Below are positions 3,482 to 61,240 of a stretch of DNA of 64,000 nucleotides, piece after piece. A model generated the notes under the pieces. That model did no database searches and was not told the DNA's origin. It saw only the letters and a program-made list of their open reading frames with translations. The position numbers and the translations under genes are program-made. Each line of letters opens with the position of its first letter. The first letter of the stretch is position 1. Source of the stretch: Streptomyces sp. CB02056 (GTDB taxonomy: Bacteria; Actinomycetota; Actinomycetes; Streptomycetales; Streptomycetaceae); assembly GCF_001905545.1 (NCBI RefSeq), contig NZ_LIPD01000007.1:404340-468339 (forward strand). The letters are read 5' to 3'.

Positions 3482-4372
3482 CTACGCCATCCCCGCCCGC
3501 CGAAGCAGGTCTTCGTCACCCGCGGCGCCCGCAGCACCGACGGCCGCCGCGCCGCGGGGCTCGCCGGTGTCCGTGCACAGCCCCGCGAGCAGGCGCAGCC
3601 CGTCCTCGGCGGGGCTGCCGGGGGCCGCGGACAGCACCAGCAGCTCGATGCCCGGCTCGTCCGGCAGCGCGAAGTTCTCCTGGTGCAGTTCCAGCGGTCC
3701 GACCAGGGGGTGCCGGTACGCCTTGCGCCCGTGGGTGCGGGCGCGGACGTCCGCGCGGGCCCAGAGGCGGCGGAAGCGCTCGCTGCCCATCGCCAACTCG
3801 CCGATGAGCGAGGCCAGTCGGGGGTCGTCGGGGTACTGGCCGGCGGCCAGCCGCAGGTGCCCGACCACGTCGAGGGTGCAGTTCTCCCAGTCGGCGTAGA
3901 GGCCGCGGTCGGCCTCCTCCAGGAAGATGTGCCGGGCGGTGTTCAGGCCCGGCATCGGGCGGCCGAGGAGGAGGCCGGCGAGACGGTTCCCGGCGAGGAC
4001 GTCCAGGCGGTGGTTCATGATCAGCGCGGGTGCGCCGGCCACCAGGTCGAGGACGCGCAGCAGTTCCGGCCGGACCCGGCTGCCCGGCGCCGTCGCACGG
4101 CGGCGGCGCTGCCGCGCGAGGCGGTAGAGGTGACCGCGTTCGGTCTCGTCGAGGTCGAGGACGCGGGCGAGCGCGTCGAGGACCTGCTCGGAGGGCTGGG
4201 TCGCGCGGCCCTGCTCCAGGCGTACGTAGTAGTCGACGCTGACGCCGGACAGGTGCGCGACCTCCTCGCGGCGCAGCCCCGCGACCCGGCGGCGGCTGTC
4301 GGTGGGGATGCCGACGGTGGCCGGATCGACCCGGGAACGCCTGGTCCGTAGGAAGCCCGCGAGATCGTCCAT
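3482..4372 (-). CDS. XRE-family regulator with MmyB-like ligand-binding domain
   Basis: A 296-residue regulator. Residues about 8-70 form a Cro/CI-type helix-turn-helix (LRREEVAHLSGVSVDYYVRLEQGR). The rest (about 105-285) is the MmyB-like PAS-type domain with MNHRLDVLAGN and the late motif HPLVGPLELHQENFALPDEP, a family that in Streptomyces binds fatty-acid-like ligands. It diverges from the quinone reductase at 4535, the usual arrangement in which this family controls a short-chain reductase or flavoprotein next door. The ATG at 4372 begins with MDDLAGFLRTRR, the canonical N-terminus. It converges with the VOC gene, leaving only 15 bp. Confidence 0.9.
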   Translation of the reverse strand: MDDLAGFLRTRRSRVDPATVGIPTDSRRRVAGLRREEVAHLSGVSVDYYVRLEQGRATQPSEQVLDALARVLDLDETERGHLYRLARQRRRRATAPGSRVRPELLRVLDLVAGAPALIMNHRLDVLAGNRLAGLLLGRPMPGLNTARHIFLEEADRGLYADWENCTLDVVGHLRLAAGQYPDDPRLASLIGELAMGSERFRRLWARADVRARTHGRKAYRHPLVGPLELHQENFALPDEPGIELLVLSAAPGSPAEDGLRLLAGLCTDTGEPRGAAAVGAAGAAGDEDLLRRAGMA

Positions 4373-4534
4373 GCCCCTCAGTATGGCCGCGGCGGGCGCC
4401 CGTACGGCCGGCTCGGGTGCCCGTGAGGGTGGCCCTGCCGGTACCAGGAAGTCCGGTCCGACGGAAGCGGCGCCCCTGAACGCCGGGCGCCGCGGCGTCC
4501 AGGATCAGAGGCATCCGATCCGAAGGAGTCCCCC

Positions 4535-5314
4535 GTGAAGACGCTGATCGTCCACGCCCACCCGGAGCCGAAGTCGCTCAACAGCTCGCTGAAGGACCTC
4601 GCGGTGTCCACCCTGGAGACCGCCGGGCACGAGGTACGGGTGAGCGACCTGTACGCGATGAACTGGAAGGCGGTCGTGGACGCCGCGGACTACGGCCCCG
4701 AGGCCTCGAGTCCGCTGAAGGTCGCCCTGGACTCGGGCCGGGCCTTCGAGGCCGGCACGCTCTCCCCGGACGTCCGCGCCGAGCAGGAGAAGCTGCTGTG
4801 GGCCGACACGATCGTCTTCCAGTTCCCGCTGTGGTGGTACACGATGCCCGCGATCCTCAAGGGGTGGGTGGACCGGGTGTTCACCTACCGCTTCGCGTAC
4901 GGCGTCGGCGAGCACAGCGCCACCAGGTACGGCGAGCGCTTCGGCGAGGGCACCCTCGCGGGCCGGCGGGCGCTGCTGTCGGTGACCGTCGGCGGCCCGG
5001 AGTCGCACTACGCCGCTCGCGGGATCAGCGGCCCCATCGACGACCTGCTGTTCCCGTTCCAGCACGGCGTCCTCTACTACCCGGGCATCGAGGTGCTGCC
5101 GCCGTTCGTGCTGTACGGCAGCGACCGGATGACCGACGAGGACTACCCGGCCGTCGCCCGGGCCTGGGAGCAGCGCCTGCTCACCCTGGAGTCGACCGAG
5201 CCGATCGCGTTCCGGCGGCAGAACTTCGGCGACTACGAGATTCCCTCGCTGCACCTGAAGGAGGGGCTGGAGCCCGCGGGCCGCACAGGGTTCGGGCTGC
5301 ACGTGCGCGGCTGA
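4535..5314 (+). CDS. NAD(P)H:quinone reductase, flavodoxin-like fold
   Basis: A 259-residue flavoprotein of the NQO1/NQO2-like family. The N-terminus KTLIVHAHPEPKSLNSSL is the FMN/FAD phosphate-binding strand-loop. FQFPLWWYTMPAILKGWVDRVF (around residues 95-117) is the highly conserved flavin-ring segment. The C-terminal part is longer than MdaB-type proteins and matches the NQO2-like group. It carries out two-electron reduction of quinones or related substrates in the cytoplasm. The GTG start at 4535 has aaggag just upstream. It is probably controlled by the divergent MmyB-type regulator. Confidence 0.87.
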   Translation: MKTLIVHAHPEPKSLNSSLKDLAVSTLETAGHEVRVSDLYAMNWKAVVDAADYGPEASSPLKVALDSGRAFEAGTLSPDVRAEQEKLLWADTIVFQFPLWWYTMPAILKGWVDRVFTYRFAYGVGEHSATRYGERFGEGTLAGRRALLSVTVGGPESHYAARGISGPIDDLLFPFQHGVLYYPGIEVLPPFVLYGSDRMTDEDYPAVARAWEQRLLTLESTEPIAFRRQNFGDYEIPSLHLKEGLEPAGRTGFGLHVRG

Positions 5315-5315
5315 G

Positions 5316-5549
5316 GGCGGTCGACTCGGTCCCCCGACTCGGTCTGTCAGCTCGGTCTACCGACTCAGTTGGTCGGCTCGGTCCACCGACTCGGACCGTC
5401 GGCTCGGTCTGCTACTTCAGTCCGCCGGCTGGGTCGGACAACCCAGTCCGGCGGCTGGGTCGAGCAACCCAGTCCATCGGCTGGGTCGAACGACAAAGTC
5501 CGTCGGCTGGGTCGAACTACCCAGTTCTCCGACTCAGTCCGCCGGCGAC
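5316..5549. repeat. 13-bp tandem repeat array, 18 units, between convergent genes
   Basis: Starting 2 bp after the stop at 5314, consecutive 13-mers of the form gtccaccgactcg run without interruption to 5549 (units start at 5316, 5329, 5342 and so on). The second half alternates two sub-types, gtccggcggctgg and gtcgagcaaccca, giving a 26-bp higher-order period. Their ctgggt and acccag cores are complementary, so successive units can fold into repeated hairpins. The last two units contain the stop codon (5534-5536) and the last codons of the convergent LuxR-type gene. Confidence 0.93.
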
Positions 5550-7942
5550 CGCTCCGCGAGCCCCCGGCGCCGCGGGCCCCGGGCGGGACCGCCTCGCTGC
5601 TCGTACGTCCACACCGCCAGCTGCGTGCGCGAGGCGAGCCCCAGTTTGCCCAGGATGCGTTCGACGTGGTTCTCCGCGGTCCGCTGCGCGATGGTGAGGC
5701 GCGCCGCGATGTCCTTGTTGGTGAGGCCCTCGGCGACCAGTTCCGCGACCTGGCTCTCGCGCTTCGTCAGTCCCGGGACCCCGGCCGGGTCGTCGAGGAC
5801 GTGGGCCATCGCCTCGTCCACGGTGGCGCGCGCTCCGCGGCGGAACTCCCGGTCGAAGGCGGCCGCGCCCAGCGCCTCCCGTACCGTGGCGTCCAGGCGC
5901 AGGTGCTGGGTGCGCATGAACGGCGCCGCGCCGAGCCGCCCGCCCAGTGACTCCCACAACAGGTGCAGCACGCCCAGGAGCCGGGCAGTGCGCCGCGGGT
6001 CGTTCCGGGTGCTCCAGGCGATGACCTCCACGCACATGGCCACGTCCCACCAGTCCTGGAACGGGCGCAGCCGGGCGATGGCCGCCCTGGCGTGCGTGGT
6101 CGCGTCGGCGGGCGCGTCCGCGCGCAGGGCCAGCAGGGCGCGGGCGAGCAGGGCCATGCCGTGCAGCCATGACTCGCCGTGCGTGCGGGCGGCCGCCTCG
6201 ACCTCGCCGCACGCCTCCTCGGCCACGGCGGCCTCGCCCCCGCAGGCGTGCGCGATGGCGAACTTGACCCGGCACTCGAGGGCCGCGTCGAGGCAGCCCA
6301 GCGCGCGGAACTCGGTGCGCGCCCGCGCGAACAGTTCGGCGGCGCTCGCGTAGTCCTCGCGCCAGACGGCGAGGATCCCGTGGTGGTGCCACACCCACGC
6401 CGACTCCCGCCGGTGGCCGCCCTGTTCGGCCGCCGCCTCGCACGCGGCGAGCGCCTGCCGTACGTCGGCGTCCGGGTCGCCCTGCAGGATGCGCAGGTAC
6501 GTGTCGGTGACCCGGGCGTGGACACGGACGGCCGTCTCCGGCCCCGTCGCGCCGTCACCGCGACTGTCACCGTCACCGCCGTCCTGCGCATGGTCAGCGG
6601 CGAGCAGCTGCGACAGCCAGTGGCGCCCCTCGGACAGCAGGCCCGCGGTCATCCAGTAGTGCCGGGGCGACACGGCCAGGGCCAGACCGGCCCGTGCCTG
6701 CCCGGGCCGCTCCAGGCAGAATCCCAGGGCGGCGCGCAGGTTCGGGTGGTCCAGGCGAAGGCGCGTGAACCAGTCGACCTGCCGGGGCCCGAACCACTCC
6801 CGCCCTGCTCGTGCGGTCAGTTCGGCGTACCGGTCCCGGTGGCGGCCGCGCAGGGCGTCGAGCGAGTTGGACGCGGCCAGCCGCTGGTGCCCGTACTCCC
6901 GTACCGTCTCCAGCATGTGGTAGCGCGAACGTCCCCGCACATGGCGGCAGTTGACGATCGACCGAGCCACCAGGCCGTCGAGGGCGTCGAGCAGGGCGGC
7001 GGGCGGCAATTCGGCGTCCGCGCAGACCCGTTCGAGGCTCTCCAGGTCGAAGCCGCCGCGGAACACCGAGGCCCGCGCCCACAGCAACCGCTCGCGCCCC
7101 GTGCACAGTTCGTGGCTCCAGTCGATCAACGCGCGCAGGGTGCGCTGCCGGTCGGCGGCGACGCTGCTCCCGCCGGTGAGCAGCGCGAACCGGTCCGTGA
7201 GCCGCTCCAGGATCTCCTGCGGCGTCAGGCTCCGGATGCGGGCGGCGGCCAGTTCGATCGCGAAGGGCAGCCCGTCCAGGCGGCGGACGAGCTCGGCGAC
7301 GGCTGCGGCGTCCGGCCTGGTCAGGGTGAAGCCGGGCAGCACGGCGGCGGCCCGGTCGACGAACAGCGCGACGGCCGGATTGCCGTTCAGGTCGCGCAGG
7401 CCGTGACCCGCCCGCGCGTCCGGCACCGGCAACGGCTCCACGGGAAAGACCTGTTCGCCCGCGATGCCGAGCGGCTGCCGGCTCGTCGCCAGGACGCGCA
7501 GTCCGGGCGCGGCCCGCAGCAACGCGTCGGTGAGGCGGGCGCACGCGTCGACCAGGTGCTCGCAGTTGTCCAGGACCAGCAGGGCGCGCCGCTCGCGCAG
7601 CCGGGCGGCGAGGACGGCCGCCGGGTCGGCGCCGGGGTGCCCCGGATTCGCCACGTCGAGGGTGCCGAGGACGCTCGACGCGAGCAGCTCCGGGTCCCGG
7701 AGGTCGGCGAGTTCGGCGACGTACACGCCGTCGGGGAAGGCGGAGCGCGCCGCGTCCGCCGCCACGCGCAGCGCCAGCCGGGTCTTGCCCACGCCTCCGG
7801 TGCCGCTGAGCGTCACCAGACGCGCGCCGGACAGCAGCCGGGCGATCCGGGCCGTGTCCGCCCGCCGCCCGATCAGCGGCGTCAGTTCGGCGTCGAAGCC
7901 GCCGAGGCCGGCGAACGTCCCCGCGGCTGCCCCCGTTCCCAT
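5534..7942 (-). CDS. large ATPase-LuxR transcriptional regulator
   Basis: An 802-residue protein. The N-terminal NB-ARC/STAND-type ATPase domain has Walker A SGTGGVGKT at residues 46-54 and a Walker B-like LLVLDNCEH near 120. The middle (about 350-720) is helical, TPR-like and rich in Ala and Arg. The C-terminal LuxR helix-turn-helix (about 735-790) contains LTKRESQVAELVAEGLTNKDIA, with the usual acidic Glu and the NKDIA recognition helix. Such proteins are typically transcriptional activators acting on neighbouring or distant operons. The target is unknown. The stop codon lies inside a 13-bp tandem repeat array. Confidence 0.88.
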   Translation of the reverse strand: MGTGAAAGTFAGLGGFDAELTPLIGRRADTARIARLLSGARLVTLSGTGGVGKTRLALRVAADAARSAFPDGVYVAELADLRDPELLASSVLGTLDVANPGHPGADPAAVLAARLRERRALLVLDNCEHLVDACARLTDALLRAAPGLRVLATSRQPLGIAGEQVFPVEPLPVPDARAGHGLRDLNGNPAVALFVDRAAAVLPGFTLTRPDAAAVAELVRRLDGLPFAIELAAARIRSLTPQEILERLTDRFALLTGGSSVAADRQRTLRALIDWSHELCTGRERLLWARASVFRGGFDLESLERVCADAELPPAALLDALDGLVARSIVNCRHVRGRSRYHMLETVREYGHQRLAASNSLDALRGRHRDRYAELTARAGREWFGPRQVDWFTRLRLDHPNLRAALGFCLERPGQARAGLALAVSPRHYWMTAGLLSEGRHWLSQLLAADHAQDGGDGDSRGDGATGPETAVRVHARVTDTYLRILQGDPDADVRQALAACEAAAEQGGHRRESAWVWHHHGILAVWREDYASAAELFARARTEFRALGCLDAALECRVKFAIAHACGGEAAVAEEACGEVEAAARTHGESWLHGMALLARALLALRADAPADATTHARAAIARLRPFQDWWDVAMCVEVIAWSTRNDPRRTARLLGVLHLLWESLGGRLGAAPFMRTQHLRLDATVREALGAAAFDREFRRGARATVDEAMAHVLDDPAGVPGLTKRESQVAELVAEGLTNKDIAARLTIAQRTAENHVERILGKLGLASRTQLAVWTYEQRGGPARGPRRRGLAERSPAD

Positions 7943-11787: not shown

Positions 11788-12146
11788 GCCGGGCCTCCCG
11801 CGAGCCTGTTCCGGGTGATGGCGAGGCGGCGGTCGGCCTCGCGGAGGGCGGCCCGCAGCCGCCGGCTCTCGTCGGTGAGGGCCTGGGTGCCGGTCGGGGT
11901 GAGGGCGAAGACGCGGCGGGGTCGCCCGTCGACCGTCTCCTCCCGTTCGACCCGGATGAGGCCTTCGGCGAGCAGTCGGTCGAGCGTGCCGTACAGGCTT
12001 CCGGCGCCGAGCCGGACCCGGCCGTCGGAGATCGCGGCGACCTCGTCGCCGAGCGCGTAGCCGTGCCGGGGCTGGTCTGCGAGGGCGGTGAGCAGCAGGA
12101 AGGTGGGCTCCTGCATGGAGCGTTTCTTCGTCACGCCGATCACCAT
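11784..12146 (-). CDS. PadR-family transcriptional regulator
   Basis: About 120 residues. The winged helix-turn-helix has MQEPTFLLLTALADQPRHGYAL, then GSLYGTLDRLLAEGLI, both signatures of PadR. The start is uncertain: ATG at 12146, GTG at 12134 or ATG at 12116 all keep the domain. I use 12146, and even the shortest leaves the fold intact. A 13-bp palindrome lies immediately upstream. It is the first gene of a two-gene operon with the membrane protein, which it probably represses in response to an unknown ligand. Confidence 0.85.
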   Translation of the reverse strand: MVIGVTKKRSMQEPTFLLLTALADQPRHGYALGDEVAAISDGRVRLGAGSLYGTLDRLLAEGLIRVEREETVDGRPRRVFALTPTGTQALTDESRRLRAALREADRRLAITRNRLAGGPA

Positions 12147-12148
12147 AG

Positions 12149-12161
12149 TACGGTCACCGTA
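12149..12161. promoter_or_regulatory. palindrome upstream of PadR gene
   Basis: tacggt-c-accgta is a perfect 6-bp inverted repeat with a 1-bp centre, placed directly upstream of the PadR coding start. It is probably the PadR autoregulatory operator. Confidence 0.55.
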
Positions 12162-12254
12162 GTGTCCGGAAGAGCGGGTGCGATCGGAGGCGGGGGGCAC
12201 TCACCGCTCATCCGCCAGGACCAACGCACACCCGGGAAGCCGGTAAGGCTTGCC

Positions 12255-12324
12255 TTGCCATGGAGTCGGGCCCGCCTCTATGGTGAAGTCCTCAGAGGAC
12301 CTGAAGACCTGGGGACCTGAGGAC
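12255..12324 (+). promoter_or_regulatory. promoter and operator of the amidase operon
   Basis: A -35-like TTGCCA (12255-12260) and -10-like TATGGT (12279-12284) are separated by 18 bp. Immediately downstream, gtcctc-a-gaggac (12288-12300) is a perfect 6-bp palindrome, followed by 8-bp tandem units gacctgaa, gacctggg, gacctgag (12298-12321). gtcctcag (12288-12295) is also complementary to ctgaggac (12317-12324). A palindrome over the expected transcription start suits repression by the operon's own GntR regulator (inference). Confidence 0.5.
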
Positions 12325-12342
12325 TACTTGGGGAGAGTGATC

Positions 12343-13824
12343 ATGTCAGACCTCCATGCCCTGACGCTGGCCGAACAGGCGGCGGCGATCCGCGGGCGCA
12401 CCGTCTCGCCGACCGAACTCGTCGACCACCACCTGCGCCGGATCGAGGAACTCGACGGCGTGCTCGGCGCCTACCGCACGGTCGACGCGCCCGGCGCCCG
12501 TCGGGCCGCCCGTGCGGCCGAGGCCAGGCTGGCCGCCGCCGGGGACGGCCCCGAGACCGGGGACGGCGCCGGGCTGCCGCCACTGCTCGGCGTGCCGCTG
12601 TCGGTGAAGGACACCTGGCCGGTCGGCGGGCTCCCGTTCACCGCGGGCTCCGCCGCCTTCGACGACCGCACCGCTCCGCAGGACGCCGCCGTGGTCGGCG
12701 CCCTCCGGGCCGCGGGCGGCGTGCTGCTGGGCACCACCACGGCCGCCGAGTTCGGCTGCTCCGCCTACACGGAGACGGTCCACGCCACCGCGCGCAGCCC
12801 GTACGACCCCGGCCGCGGCGCCGGGGGTTCCAGCGGCGGGGCGGCCGCCTCGGTCTCCGCCGGACTGGCCGCCGGGGCCCTGGGCAGCGACGGCGGCGGC
12901 TCGGTCCGGATCCCGGCCGCCGCCTGCGGTGTGGTCGGCCTCAAGCCCAGCCGGGGCCGGGTGACGACCGCCCCCGGCACGGACGCCTTCGGGCTGGCCA
13001 CCGCCGGCCCGCTGGCCCGGACGATACTGGACGCGGCCCTCCTGCTGGACGTCATGGCCGGCAGCGTCCCGGGCGACGGCAGCACCCTGCCCGCCTCCCC
13101 CGCCGGCCACTTCCGGGCCTGCGTCGAACGCGAGCCCGGCCCGCTGCGGATCGGCGTCCTGCCCCGGACGGACGGGTGGCACCCGGAGGCCGCGCTGGCC
13201 TCCCGCCGCACCGCCGACCTGCTCGCCGACCTCGGCCACCGGGTGGAGGAGGCCCCGCCGTTCGACCCCGCCGAGTACGTGCCGGACTTCACCGTGCTGT
13301 GGAGCGTGCTGGCCGCCGCCGTGCCCGTCCCGCCGGAGCGGGAGGACCGGCTGCTGCCGCTGACCCGCTGGCTGCGCGCCCGGGGCAACGAGCACAGCGC
13401 GGTCCGGCTGGCCGCGGCGATGGCCTCGCTGACCGCCACCGCCCGGACGATCTGCCACCGGTACGACCATTTCGACGCGGTGCTGAGCCCCACGACGGAC
13501 CAACCGCCGCTGCCGGTCGGGTCGTTGGCCGACCCTGACGCCCCGGAGCGGACCTACGCCCGGATGCTCGCCGTCACCCCGCGCACGCCGGTGGCGAACC
13601 TCACCGGCCGGCCGTCGATCAGCCTGCCGCTGCACTGGACCCCGGACGGACTGCCGATCGGCGTGATGCTGACCGCCCGGCTCCACCAGGAGGGCCTCCT
13701 GCTCTCCCTCGGCGCCCAGCTGGAACGGGCCCGGCCCTGGCACCACCACGCCGCCCGGCAGGCGGCCGTCCTGGAGCGGGCGACCGGGCAGAACACGGCG
13801 CGGCCCGAGCGGGGGACGCGGTGA
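12343..13824 (+). CDS. amidase-signature-family hydrolase
   Basis: A 493-residue cytoplasmic amidase. The Ser-cisSer-Lys catalytic triad is visible as Lys89 in SVKDTW, the GGSSGG loop at 161-166 and Ser187 in GSDGGGSVRIPA. The family hydrolyses amide bonds of small molecules, and GatA-like specificity is unlikely because no GatB/GatC partner is near. The ATG at 12343 has ggggagag upstream; an upstream in-frame ATG lacks such a site. It is the first gene of an operon with an MFS transporter (4-bp overlap) and a GntR regulator, suggesting uptake or export of the amide or its product. The substrate is unknown. Confidence 0.88.
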   Translation: MSDLHALTLAEQAAAIRGRTVSPTELVDHHLRRIEELDGVLGAYRTVDAPGARRAARAAEARLAAAGDGPETGDGAGLPPLLGVPLSVKDTWPVGGLPFTAGSAAFDDRTAPQDAAVVGALRAAGGVLLGTTTAAEFGCSAYTETVHATARSPYDPGRGAGGSSGGAAASVSAGLAAGALGSDGGGSVRIPAAACGVVGLKPSRGRVTTAPGTDAFGLATAGPLARTILDAALLLDVMAGSVPGDGSTLPASPAGHFRACVEREPGPLRIGVLPRTDGWHPEAALASRRTADLLADLGHRVEEAPPFDPAEYVPDFTVLWSVLAAAVPVPPEREDRLLPLTRWLRARGNEHSAVRLAAAMASLTATARTICHRYDHFDAVLSPTTDQPPLPVGSLADPDAPERTYARMLAVTPRTPVANLTGRPSISLPLHWTPDGLPIGVMLTARLHQEGLLLSLGAQLERARPWHHHAARQAAVLERATGQNTARPERGTR

Positions 13825-15062
13825 AGCGCGGACAGCTGGCCTTCCTGACCGGCACCCACATCGTCAACGACCTCTACCAGGGCGCCGTCCCGGCCCTGCT
13901 GCCCTTCCTGATGTCCCAGCGGCACTACAGCTACACCGCCGTCTCCGGCATCGCCCTGGCCGCGAGCGGCCTGTCCAGCGTGGTCCAGCCGCTGTTCGGC
14001 CTGCTGGTCGACCGCCGCCCCCGCGGCTGGCTCATCCCGGCCGGCTTCCTCACCGCCGCGGCCGGGATCACCGGTGCGGCCCTCGCCGACAGCTACCCGC
14101 TGACCTGGCTCTTCGCCGCGCTGGCCGGCATCGGCATCGCCGCCTACCACCCGGCCGCCACCAACCAGGCCCGGGTCGCCGGCGGACAGTCCCAGCGGGC
14201 GATGAGCCTGTTCTCCGTCGGGGGCACCCTCGGCGCCTCGCTGGCACCGGCCCTGGTCACCCTCGTGGTCGGCGCGTACGGCCTGGGCGGCAGCTGGCTG
14301 CTGGCCGTCCCGGCGCTGGTGACGGCCCTGCTGTGGGCCGCGCAGGGCCGCTGGCTGCGGTACCGCGGCCACACCCCGGCGACCCCGGCCGCCGCCCGGG
14401 GCGCGGCGACGAGCGCCCACCGCGACGACTGGCGGGCGTTCGGACGCCTCGCCGCGACCACCGTCGCCTGGTCGATCCCCTACGTAACCGTCACCTCGAT
14501 GCTCGCCCTCCACATCCAGCGCGACCTCCACGGCTCGACGGGAACCGGCGCCGCCGCACTGACCCTGCTCACCCTGGCCGGGGCGGCCGGCACCCTGCTC
14601 GGCGGCTGGCTCGGCGACCGGCACGGACGGATGACCCCGATCCGCACCGGCTACTTGCTGGCCGTCCCCGCCCTGGCCGCCGTGGCCTTCGCACCCTCCG
14701 TCGCGGTCGCCATGGCCGGCGCGGTGGCGTTCGGACTGGCCATGTTCCTGCCCTTCGCCCCGCAGGTGACACTCGCCCAGGACTACCTGCCCACCCGGCC
14801 CGGCACCGCCAGCGGGCTGACCCTCGGACTCGCCATGTCCGTGGGCGGCCTCGCCGCACCGGCGCTCGGGGGCCTGGCCGACGCCCACGGCCTGCGGACC
14901 GTCCTCGCCCTGGTCCTCGGCGTGCTGGCGCTCGGACTCGGCTCCGCGCTGCGGCTGCGCGACCGCGTACTGCCGGAGGCGGGGCCGGAGCAGGGGCCGG
15001 AACCGGCCCCGGAACGGGTGAACGAGCAGGCCGCCACGGGTGCGGCACCCGGAGGACGATAG
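13821..15062 (+). CDS. MFS transporter, fosmidomycin-resistance (FSR)-like
   Basis: A 413-residue, 12-helix major facilitator. The N-terminus HIVNDLYQGAVPALLPFLM is typical of the FSR group, and loop 2-3 has the MFS-like LVDRRPRG. A second conserved element is GGWLGDRHGRMTP. The GTG start overlaps the amidase stop (GTGA), indicating coupled translation. It probably moves the amidase's substrate or product across the membrane. It could also be a simple drug-efflux protein. Confidence 0.85.
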   Translation: MKRGQLAFLTGTHIVNDLYQGAVPALLPFLMSQRHYSYTAVSGIALAASGLSSVVQPLFGLLVDRRPRGWLIPAGFLTAAAGITGAALADSYPLTWLFAALAGIGIAAYHPAATNQARVAGGQSQRAMSLFSVGGTLGASLAPALVTLVVGAYGLGGSWLLAVPALVTALLWAAQGRWLRYRGHTPATPAAARGAATSAHRDDWRAFGRLAATTVAWSIPYVTVTSMLALHIQRDLHGSTGTGAAALTLLTLAGAAGTLLGGWLGDRHGRMTPIRTGYLLAVPALAAVAFAPSVAVAMAGAVAFGLAMFLPFAPQVTLAQDYLPTRPGTASGLTLGLAMSVGGLAAPALGGLADAHGLRTVLALVLGVLALGLGSALRLRDRVLPEAGPEQGPEPAPERVNEQAATGAAPGGR

Positions 15063-46740: not shown

Positions 46741-46862
46741 CGTCACGACAGCGGTACGTCGGATCGTCACGACGGCGACGTGACGCGAGCGGCGTGACGG
46801 CGCGATCGTGACGACAGCGGCGTGACAGCAGCCGCGTGACGACCGCGGGGTCGCGACAACGG
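46741..46862. repeat. 14-bp tandem repeat array after the serine-hydrolase gene
   Basis: Units starting cgtcac or cgtgac occur at 46741, 46765, 46779, 46793, 46807, 46821 and 46835, with a degenerate one at 46849. Spacing is exactly 14 bp from 46765 on, for example cgtgacgacagcgg. The first unit is separated by 10 odd bases. The array starts 16 bp after the stop codon and runs into a hairpin. Confidence 0.88.
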
Positions 46863-60286: not shown

Positions 60287-61192
60287 ATGAGTCGTGACAC
60301 CGTTCCCGCGACCGAGACCATCCGCCCCGAGTGGGCCGCGATCGACGAGTTGCCCACGGTCGAGCTGCTCCGGCTGATGAACGCCGAGGACCGTACGGTG
60401 CCCGAGGCCGTCGCCGGGGAGTTGGAGCGGATCGCCGCCGTGGTCGACGCCGTGGCCGCCCGGATGGCGCGTGGTGGCCGGCTGGTCTACGCGGGCGCCG
60501 GGACGGCCGGGCGGCTCGGCGTGCTGGACGCCGTCGAGTGCCCGCCGACCTTCGGCACCGATCCGGCGCTGGTCGTCGGCCTGATCGCGGGCGGGCGCCC
60601 GGCCGTCACGGCGGCGGCCGAGGGCGCCGAGGACCGCACCGACCTCGCCGAGGCCGATGTGGCCGCACTCGCCCTCACCTCCGCCGACACCCTGGTGGGC
60701 GTCTCCGCCTCCGGCCGTACGCCCTACCCGCTGGCCGCCGTCCGCGCCGCGCGCGCGGCGGGGGCGCTGACCGTCGGGCTGGCGTGCAACCGCGGCTCGG
60801 CGCTCGCGGCCGCGGCCGAGTTGGGCATCGAGGTGGAGGTCGGCCCCGAAGTGCTGGCCGGATCGACCCGGCTCAAGGCGGGCACGGCGCAGAAGTTGGT
60901 GCTCAACCTGCTCTCCACGGCCGTGATGGTCCGGCTCGGCCGGACGTACGGAAATCTGATGGTCGACCTCCGCGCCACCAACGACAAGCTGCGCGACCGC
61001 GCCCGACGGATCGTCGCCGAGGCGACCGGCGCCGACGGGACCGCGGTCGACCGCGCCCTGAGCGCGACCGGCGGCCGGGTCAAGGACGCCATCCTCTCCC
61101 TGCTCGCGGACGTGGACGCCCCCACCGCAGCGCGCCTGCTCACGGCCTCGGAGGGACGGCTGCGCGAAGCCCTCCGCCTCGCCCGGCCGTAG
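60287..61192 (+). CDS. murQ: N-acetylmuramic acid 6-phosphate etherase
   Basis: A 301-residue SIS-domain enzyme. VYAGAGTAGRLGVLDAVECPPTFG near the start, EGAEDRTDLAEAD, VSASGRTPY and the run NLLSTAVMVRLGRTYGNLMVDL with LRATNDKLRDRA are near-identical to MurQ. It splits the lactyl ether of MurNAc-6-phosphate to give GlcNAc-6-phosphate in peptidoglycan recycling. The ATG at 60287 follows gaggcggg. No partner murK or nagB is adjacent. The 3' end carries a 26-bp tandem duplication that includes the stop codon. Confidence 0.95.
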   Translation: MSRDTVPATETIRPEWAAIDELPTVELLRLMNAEDRTVPEAVAGELERIAAVVDAVAARMARGGRLVYAGAGTAGRLGVLDAVECPPTFGTDPALVVGLIAGGRPAVTAAAEGAEDRTDLAEADVAALALTSADTLVGVSASGRTPYPLAAVRAARAAGALTVGLACNRGSALAAAAELGIEVEVGPEVLAGSTRLKAGTAQKLVLNLLSTAVMVRLGRTYGNLMVDLRATNDKLRDRARRIVAEATGADGTAVDRALSATGGRVKDAILSLLADVDAPTAARLLTASEGRLREALRLARP

Positions 61193-61240
61193 CAGCCCTC
61201 CGCCTCGCCCGGCCGTAGCAGCCCTCCACCGCGCCCGGCT
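61170..61240. repeat. 26-bp tandem repeat at the murQ stop
   Basis: Two perfect copies (61170-61195, 61196-61221), starting ccctccgcctcg, and a partial third (61222-61240) lie at the 3' end of murQ. The TAG stop (61190-61192) is inside the first copy and repeated in the second. Confidence 0.88.

Follow-up and report, generated by a model that had tools for sequence, protein, structure and literature searches.

Between two convergent genes of Streptomyces sp. CB02056 lies a stretch of DNA built almost entirely from short tandem units, and the question raised by this locus is whether these units form a dedicated element, such as a terminator or the target of a DNA-binding protein, or whether they are the product of local duplication. 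The window, meaning the whole stretch of 64,000 nucleotides that was analysed, belongs to a genome of 9.54 Mb in 34 contigs. The answer that we regard as quite probable is a minisatellite, enlarged by tandem duplication after the convergent stops, that probably also acts as an ordinary two-way terminator or 3'-end stabiliser. The features concerned are the following.

3482 to 4372, minus strand: HTH regulator with an MmyB-like ligand-binding domain, divergent from the reductase gene
4535 to 5314, plus strand: flavodoxin-fold NAD(P)H oxidoreductase gene (Flavodoxin_2), the reductase gene
5322 to 5542, no strand: tandem array, 17 x 13 bp, with a 26-bp higher-order period
5322 to 5425, no strand: first half of the array, units 1-8, of CGACTCGGTC/CGGCTCGGTC type
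5422 to 5454, no strand: strongest predicted hairpin, usable on both strands, -25.5 and -26.7 kcal/mol
5426 to 5529, no strand: second half of the array, units 9-16, CGGCTGGGTC and CAACCCAGTC types alternating, one decayed
5530 to 5542, no strand: unit 17, holding the stop TGA and the last two codons of the LuxR gene
5534 to 7942, minus strand: LuxR-type regulator carrying an AAA ATPase domain, converging on the reductase gene

The gap between the convergent genes is 219 bp long (5315-5533) and the array, which begins 7 nt past the stop of the reductase gene, occupies nearly all of it. The HTH regulator is the usual partner of the reductase gene in relatives, the two forming a recurrent pair on chromosomes and plasmids (on one plasmid the HTH regulator is unannotated beside the reductase gene, yet its DNA matches), and the gene downstream of this pair varies among relatives. 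Among its named relatives, the LuxR gene is closest to those from Streptomyces. A known RNA family and a tRNA gene were both rejected as the identity of the array, Rfam giving no match at gathering score anywhere in the window and the window holding no tRNA genes.

The array measures 221 bp and consists of 17 in-register units of 13 bp. The original prediction had counted 18 units; the presence of a 13-bp array between convergent genes is borne out, but the count is better given as 17, the putative eighteenth unit (5543-5555, CGGCGACCGCTCC) being scarcely recognisable and barely resembling the others. Compared with itself, the array has a self-match of 0.53 at an offset of 13 and 0.74 at an offset of 26, with peaks at offsets 13, 26, 39, and 52, against a maximum of 0.40 at any offset of 5-59 in 1000 mononucleotide shuffles. 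Unit identity, as a mean over the whole array, is 0.53 at lag 1, 0.74 at lag 2, and 0.72 at lag 4. As identity is higher at lag 2 than at lag 1, the true repeat is one of 26 bp, with signs of 52-bp blocks; the periods reported by TRF are 13, 26, and 52. A pattern describing the unit pair (three mismatches or fewer) finds 12 matches in the array and one elsewhere in the window, shuffled windows containing a mean of 0.53 and at most 3. In the second half, units carrying CTGGGT (at 5429, 5455, 5481, and 5507) alternate with units carrying ACCCAG (at 5441, 5467, and 5519) so that neighbours can pair, just as had been predicted, the fourth partner unit (unit 14, 5491-5503, CGACAAAGTCCGT) having decayed. 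The 26-bp alternation is already present in the first half, where pairing is weaker, and core positions within units are strongly conserved. Equally correct was the claim that the array contains the last two codons and stop of the LuxR-type gene, the stop lying at 5534-5536 in unit 17. In its head-to-tail copies of a unit within the range of approximately 10-100 bp, the array has the organisation of a minisatellite.

The array is predicted to fold well. As RNA, the stretch 5316-5549 has z-scores of -5.0 on the plus strand and -3.9 on the minus strand, and as plus-strand DNA one of -3.8; the stretch defined by TRF scores -4.0. Folding of both strands had been proposed as a check, and the 221-bp array alone folds better than dinucleotide shuffles on each, with z-scores of -4.6 (plus) and -4.5 (minus). 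The second half (units 9-16) folds far better than shuffles, at -6.8 and -6.5, and the first half (units 1-8) little better, at -0.9 and -1.0. These values, together with the position between convergent stops, count in favour of a selected multi-hairpin bidirectional terminator, in which a 26-bp hairpin unit would have been amplified because more hairpins insulate convergent genes better. The same can be said of a six-pair stem between neighbouring units, the A/B stem, which is paired in 85.4% of cells across the eight 26-mers and in no more than 50.0% after a shift of one to three columns. Under a stricter null, in which the repeat is kept and the unit columns are permuted (200 permutations each), 3 of 200 permutations of 13 columns fold as well as the array on the plus strand and 16 of 200 on the minus strand, the figures for 26 columns being 1 of 200 and 9 of 200; palindromic content thus exceeds that of repeat-preserving permutations on the plus strand and does so less clearly on the minus strand.

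Other properties of the folding argue against selection for many hairpins. Arrays with their units shuffled in order fold about as well (51 of 200 and 93 of 200 equal the original), and since the folding energy is nearly unchanged by such shuffling, strict alternation is not needed for folding. Compensatory change between paired units was also considered, a case weakened by the eight 26-mers, in which no pair of the A/B stem is altered on both sides; with partners dealt anew, pairing is at least as good in 500 of 500 shuffles. The four 26-mers of the first half carry a C-C mismatch (column 6 with 19) and a G-U pair (column 7 with 18), and three of the four in the second half have G-C at both column pairs, 6/19 and 7/18. 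These stem-improving changes are a hint of selection for the hairpin, consisting of two substitutions only.

The original prediction had allowed for a strong bidirectional terminator; hairpin-forming potential on both strands is borne out, but not particular strength. A stable hairpin is predicted on both strands at a site between convergent genes, the strongest being that at 5422-5454. Two T are found in the 8 nt after its stem on each strand, the U-tract of a classical intrinsic terminator is absent on either strand, and a simple terminator scan of 4400-6400 returns no terminator-like sites. The best 45-nt hairpin of the array gap has -31.4 kcal/mol on the plus and -32.0 kcal/mol on the minus strand, close to the median values (-32.2 and -31.8 kcal/mol) for the best hairpin in 101 convergent gaps, each 40-600 bp long, from the sampled part of the same genome. 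Gaps with a hairpin at least as strong number 57 of 101 and 49 of 101, and energy per nucleotide is equal or lower in 69 of 101, the array gap itself included in these counts. With a best hairpin near the median and no T-tract, the multi-hairpin terminator is in our view an unlikely account of the locus. A role as an ordinary two-way hairpin terminator is nonetheless plausible from the predicted folding, and given the usual strength of the hairpin at 5422-5454, the array is probably either such a terminator or a stabiliser of RNA 3' ends. In the portion of a Streptomyces clavuligerus study concerned with highly structured 3' ends, which sets a dividing energy of -23 kcal/mol for 40 nt at 30 C, 353 of 535 such ends are U-lack; this 'HS-U-lack' class, with fewer than three U in 8 nt, shows more read-through than the U-rich class (PMC8269248). 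The array hairpin resembles this class in that it is strong and GC-rich, is usable on both strands, and has fewer than three U among the 8 nt that follow; it differs from the S. clavuligerus 3' ends described there in lying within a 17-unit tandem array and in being a predicted structure (PMC8269248).

Comparison with relatives, covering one genome per species, shows the array to be lineage-specific. It is a single copy in its own genome (one match at E <= 0.001), and among 70 genomes of the genus, its own included, blastn finds one other match at this threshold (37 bp in G018, called coding). At E <= 0.01, short matches occur in 14 other genomes of the genus, one of them a noncoding 13-bp array (L131, in G043). 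The reductase gene has relatives in 68 of 388 genomes at E <= 1e-120; at the 33 loci examined, from 29 of the 67 non-own matched genomes and 4 of 88 plasmid records, the array is absent beside the gene in 33 of 33, and so is the LuxR neighbour within the available flank. Presence is thus not conserved at the orthologous place, as in a minisatellite, and absence alongside unchanged gene ends, which the original prediction had named as evidence against itself, is largely what the 33 relatives display for the reductase gene. Some tandem repeat starts within 200 nt of the reductase stop in 8 of the 33 (TRF score of at least 40), and with a score of at least 60 and a start within 30 nt of the stop in 4 of 12 same-genus loci and none of 21 others. 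The following arrays downstream of reductase genes are unrelated to the 13-bp array.

L293: CGGGA, 5 bp
L294: 16 bp, extending across the stop
L311: 14 bp
L318: 14 bp

On the LuxR side, where downstream DNA was inspected for 8 of 80 loci (one, L042, a partial match), TRF reports no array downstream of the two closest relatives (L038, 85%; L039, 83%), whose proteins end approximately 13 residues earlier. No relative of the reductase is found at E <= 1e-10 in the 84 loci of LuxR relatives (L034-L117).

The original prediction had also allowed for a DNA-binding protein reading a 26-bp period. A target array of this kind, read with a period of 13 or 26 bp, would account for the strongly conserved core positions, and several searches across the family lean the same way. 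With the array as query, family-wide blastn finds matches in at least 56 of 394 genomes, its own included, compared with at least 37 of 394 for a reversed array, both counts being lower bounds as two candidates were scored per genome. Classification covered 29 of the array's 58 non-own places and 30 of the 39 found by the reversed control; matches overlapping a tandem repeat number 16 of 29 versus 5 of 30, and 8 versus 3 of these lie in sequence called noncoding. Allowing a gap of 0-28, 74 of 394 genomes contain the exact core pair, which is present at 101 places; the backwards pattern is present at 43. The period itself is not reproduced, however: noncoding matches with a period of 13, 26, or 39 number 3 of 29 against 2 of 30 for the reversed control, and the core pair has no preference for 13-bp spacing across the 394 genomes, this spacing being seen in 3 of the 74 matched genomes, one of them its own. 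Unit sequence and spacing are not conserved across related loci as they would be in an iteron-like array. With one other match in the genus at E <= 0.001, no spacing preference, a single copy in the genome, and absence beside 33 reductase relatives, a conserved protein-target array was rejected and the reading of a 26-bp period by a protein is not supported; we consider it highly improbable. What these searches suggest is that the family may have a mild bias towards sequence of the array's type, not a conserved element.

Look-alike arrays of 13 bp with a similar core just after stops do occur in other genomes (L122, L127, L131), which would suit a dispersed mobile or REP-like repeat family. 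Such look-alikes differ in unit and gene, though, and the idea of one motif recurring after stops in different species is weakened by the matches that the backwards array also finds. The genome contains one copy and not the many homologous copies of a REP- or BIME-like family (one match at E <= 0.001), so membership of a dispersed family was rejected and is in our view highly improbable. As a separate observation, GACTCGGTC pairs approximately 32-37 bp apart, with partly similar spacers of GGCCAAGAAGGCACC type, occur at L171 (G168:C19) and at places in G271, G225, and G315, and may form a repeat family of their own within this bacterial family.

The array is one of many. In 1.264 Mb of its own genome, 579 gaps of 20-1500 bp were surveyed (TRF score of at least 50) and contain 129 arrays 30 bp or longer, at densities per kb of 0.86 in convergent, 0.80 in co-directional, and 0.65 in divergent gaps, the 13-bp array being the second longest in these gaps after four tandem small genes. 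Past stops, arrays cover 7% of the first 25 nt, 8-11% at 25-100 nt, and 1-3% beyond 150 nt. Within genes they cover 2-3% of the final 150 nt, and ahead of starts 2-4% of the nearest 50 nt, rising to as much as 8% at 100-150 nt. Of 495 post-stop stretches in this genome, 84 (17.0%) contain an array, as do 48 of 482 pre-start stretches (10.0%); the corresponding rates in dinucleotide shuffles are 1.4% and 0.6%. Five further genomes of the genus have post-stop counts of 13/84, 6/39, 14/44, 6/44, and 12/42, and five from a second genus within the family have 15/89, 8/46, 10/40, 3/43, and 0/26, so that one of the ten is without any; in 67 loci mostly from other actinobacteria (L045-L111) they number 14 of 257. 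Over 2.464 Mb, 15 of 239 convergent gaps of at least 40 bp are at least half array, the gap studied here being the longest of these. Of the 57 stretches of 80 bp or more that were scored as array and noncoding, the 13-bp array ranks sixth by length; the gene caller being a simple GC3 filter, some arrays in this count are genes, and the longer stretches include five tRNA-Arg genes (L324) and a small-gene repeat (L235).

Several of these stretches are of note in their own right. Within the window, an array of 26 bp x 2.8 (61168-61239, 95% matches in TRF) spans the stop of a gene ending at 61192, repeating its last coding bases and TAG, and noncoding arrays lie shortly after gene stops at 46762-46848 (periods of 14, 28, and 42 bp) and 987-1043 (19 bp). 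L233 carries an 86-bp x 8 array (11881-12571) and, at 13225-14194, repeated palindromes of GGAAGTCGGC..GTCGACTTCC type in a long stretch without a called gene, the two together at approximately 131881-134194 of G000:C12. At L235 (14367-14925, approximately 174367-174925 of G000:C12), a tiny gene is present in four tandem 141-bp copies, two of which translate as MANILALQELDEEIVVDAPFSSVSAFSC and MADILALQELDEEIVVDAPFSSLSYWSC; these may be repeated RiPP precursors. L324 (14294-14823, G028) holds five tandem tRNA-Arg genes (anticodon tcg) of 92 nt at 109-bp spacing.

As a class, post-stop arrays fold poorly. For 119 of the 167 found, those of 40-250 bp, the mean z is -0.54 with 14% below -2, and array-free post-stop sequence averages -1.39 (250 stretches), the arrays folding less well (Mann-Whitney p 0.011). 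Most post-stop arrays are therefore unlike terminators and the 13-bp array is an exception; the poor folding of the class also speaks against the multi-hairpin terminator. Arrays that include a gene stop form 46 gene-array pairs with 45 distinct arrays in 2.464 Mb. Preferential copying of the stop codon was considered and rejected, the stop triplet being repeated exactly in 20 of 43 copies one period on, versus 22.9 expected from the similarity of other triplets. None of the titles and abstract openings in a literature search of partial coverage concerns Streptomyces post-stop arrays, which does not imply that they are unpublished; the passage on intergenic tandem repeats in one paper deals with synthase genes (PMC4849082).

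Taken together, tandem duplication after convergent stops, probably with an ordinary terminator or stabiliser as a by-product, is the explanation that we prefer. Local duplication would have produced 13-bp units and then blocks of 26 and 52 bp, growing in DNA between two convergent stops where extra copies presumably cost little, and the result would be one member of a class of degenerate tandem arrays found after stops across the genome and the family. The pair of neighbouring units at 5422-5454 would then form a hairpin of the usual strength for convergent gaps of this genome, through which the array probably also acts in termination or in stabilising RNA 3' ends. Counting against this explanation, the 13-bp array is atypically well folded for its class (-4.6/-4.5 versus a mean of -0.54), arrays also occur away from gene ends (coverage of 8% at 100-150 nt upstream of starts), the stop codon is not specially copied, one genome has 0/26, and the second half carries the stem-improving substitutions.

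A broader proposal, which we put forward tentatively as a minority possibility, is that an unrecognised process across the Streptomycetaceae grows private arrays after stops, in approximately one in six stretches, and that occasional capture of a hairpin gives rise to a new two-way terminator; its likelihood is lowered because the stop codon is not specially copied. By itself, the 13-bp array is of little consequence. The single locus is ordinary in kind, and a better lead is how common post-stop arrays are in the family. If arrays arise after stops this often, they would provide new 3' UTRs and terminators at little cost, might serve as fast-evolving strain markers, and would form the background for judging any regulatory repeat claimed in the family.

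Bacterial minisatellites, or VNTR-type repeats, consist of short tandem units and are intergenic and lineage-specific. The array is like them in all three respects, and unlike typical examples in that its units are degenerate, its hairpin-forming alternation is unusual, and it is known from one strain. The tandem repeats of Borgs, archaeal extrachromosomal elements, are A-enriched, with near-identical units in the examples given (PMC9879509). Arrays of both kinds arise independently in or between genes and are rarely kept in close relatives, whereas those of the Streptomycetaceae are GC-rich, degenerate, and concentrated after stops, judged against the Borg repeats described in that account (PMC9879509). 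In marine Beggiatoaceae, the TAACTGA repeats are one fixed heptamer that, in the genome described, lies mostly just before start codons (PMC4679880). These too are abundant intergenic direct repeats with two to many copies per set, but in the Streptomycetaceae the sequence differs at each gene and the arrays are densest after stops, which sets them apart from the heptamer as it is described there (PMC4679880).
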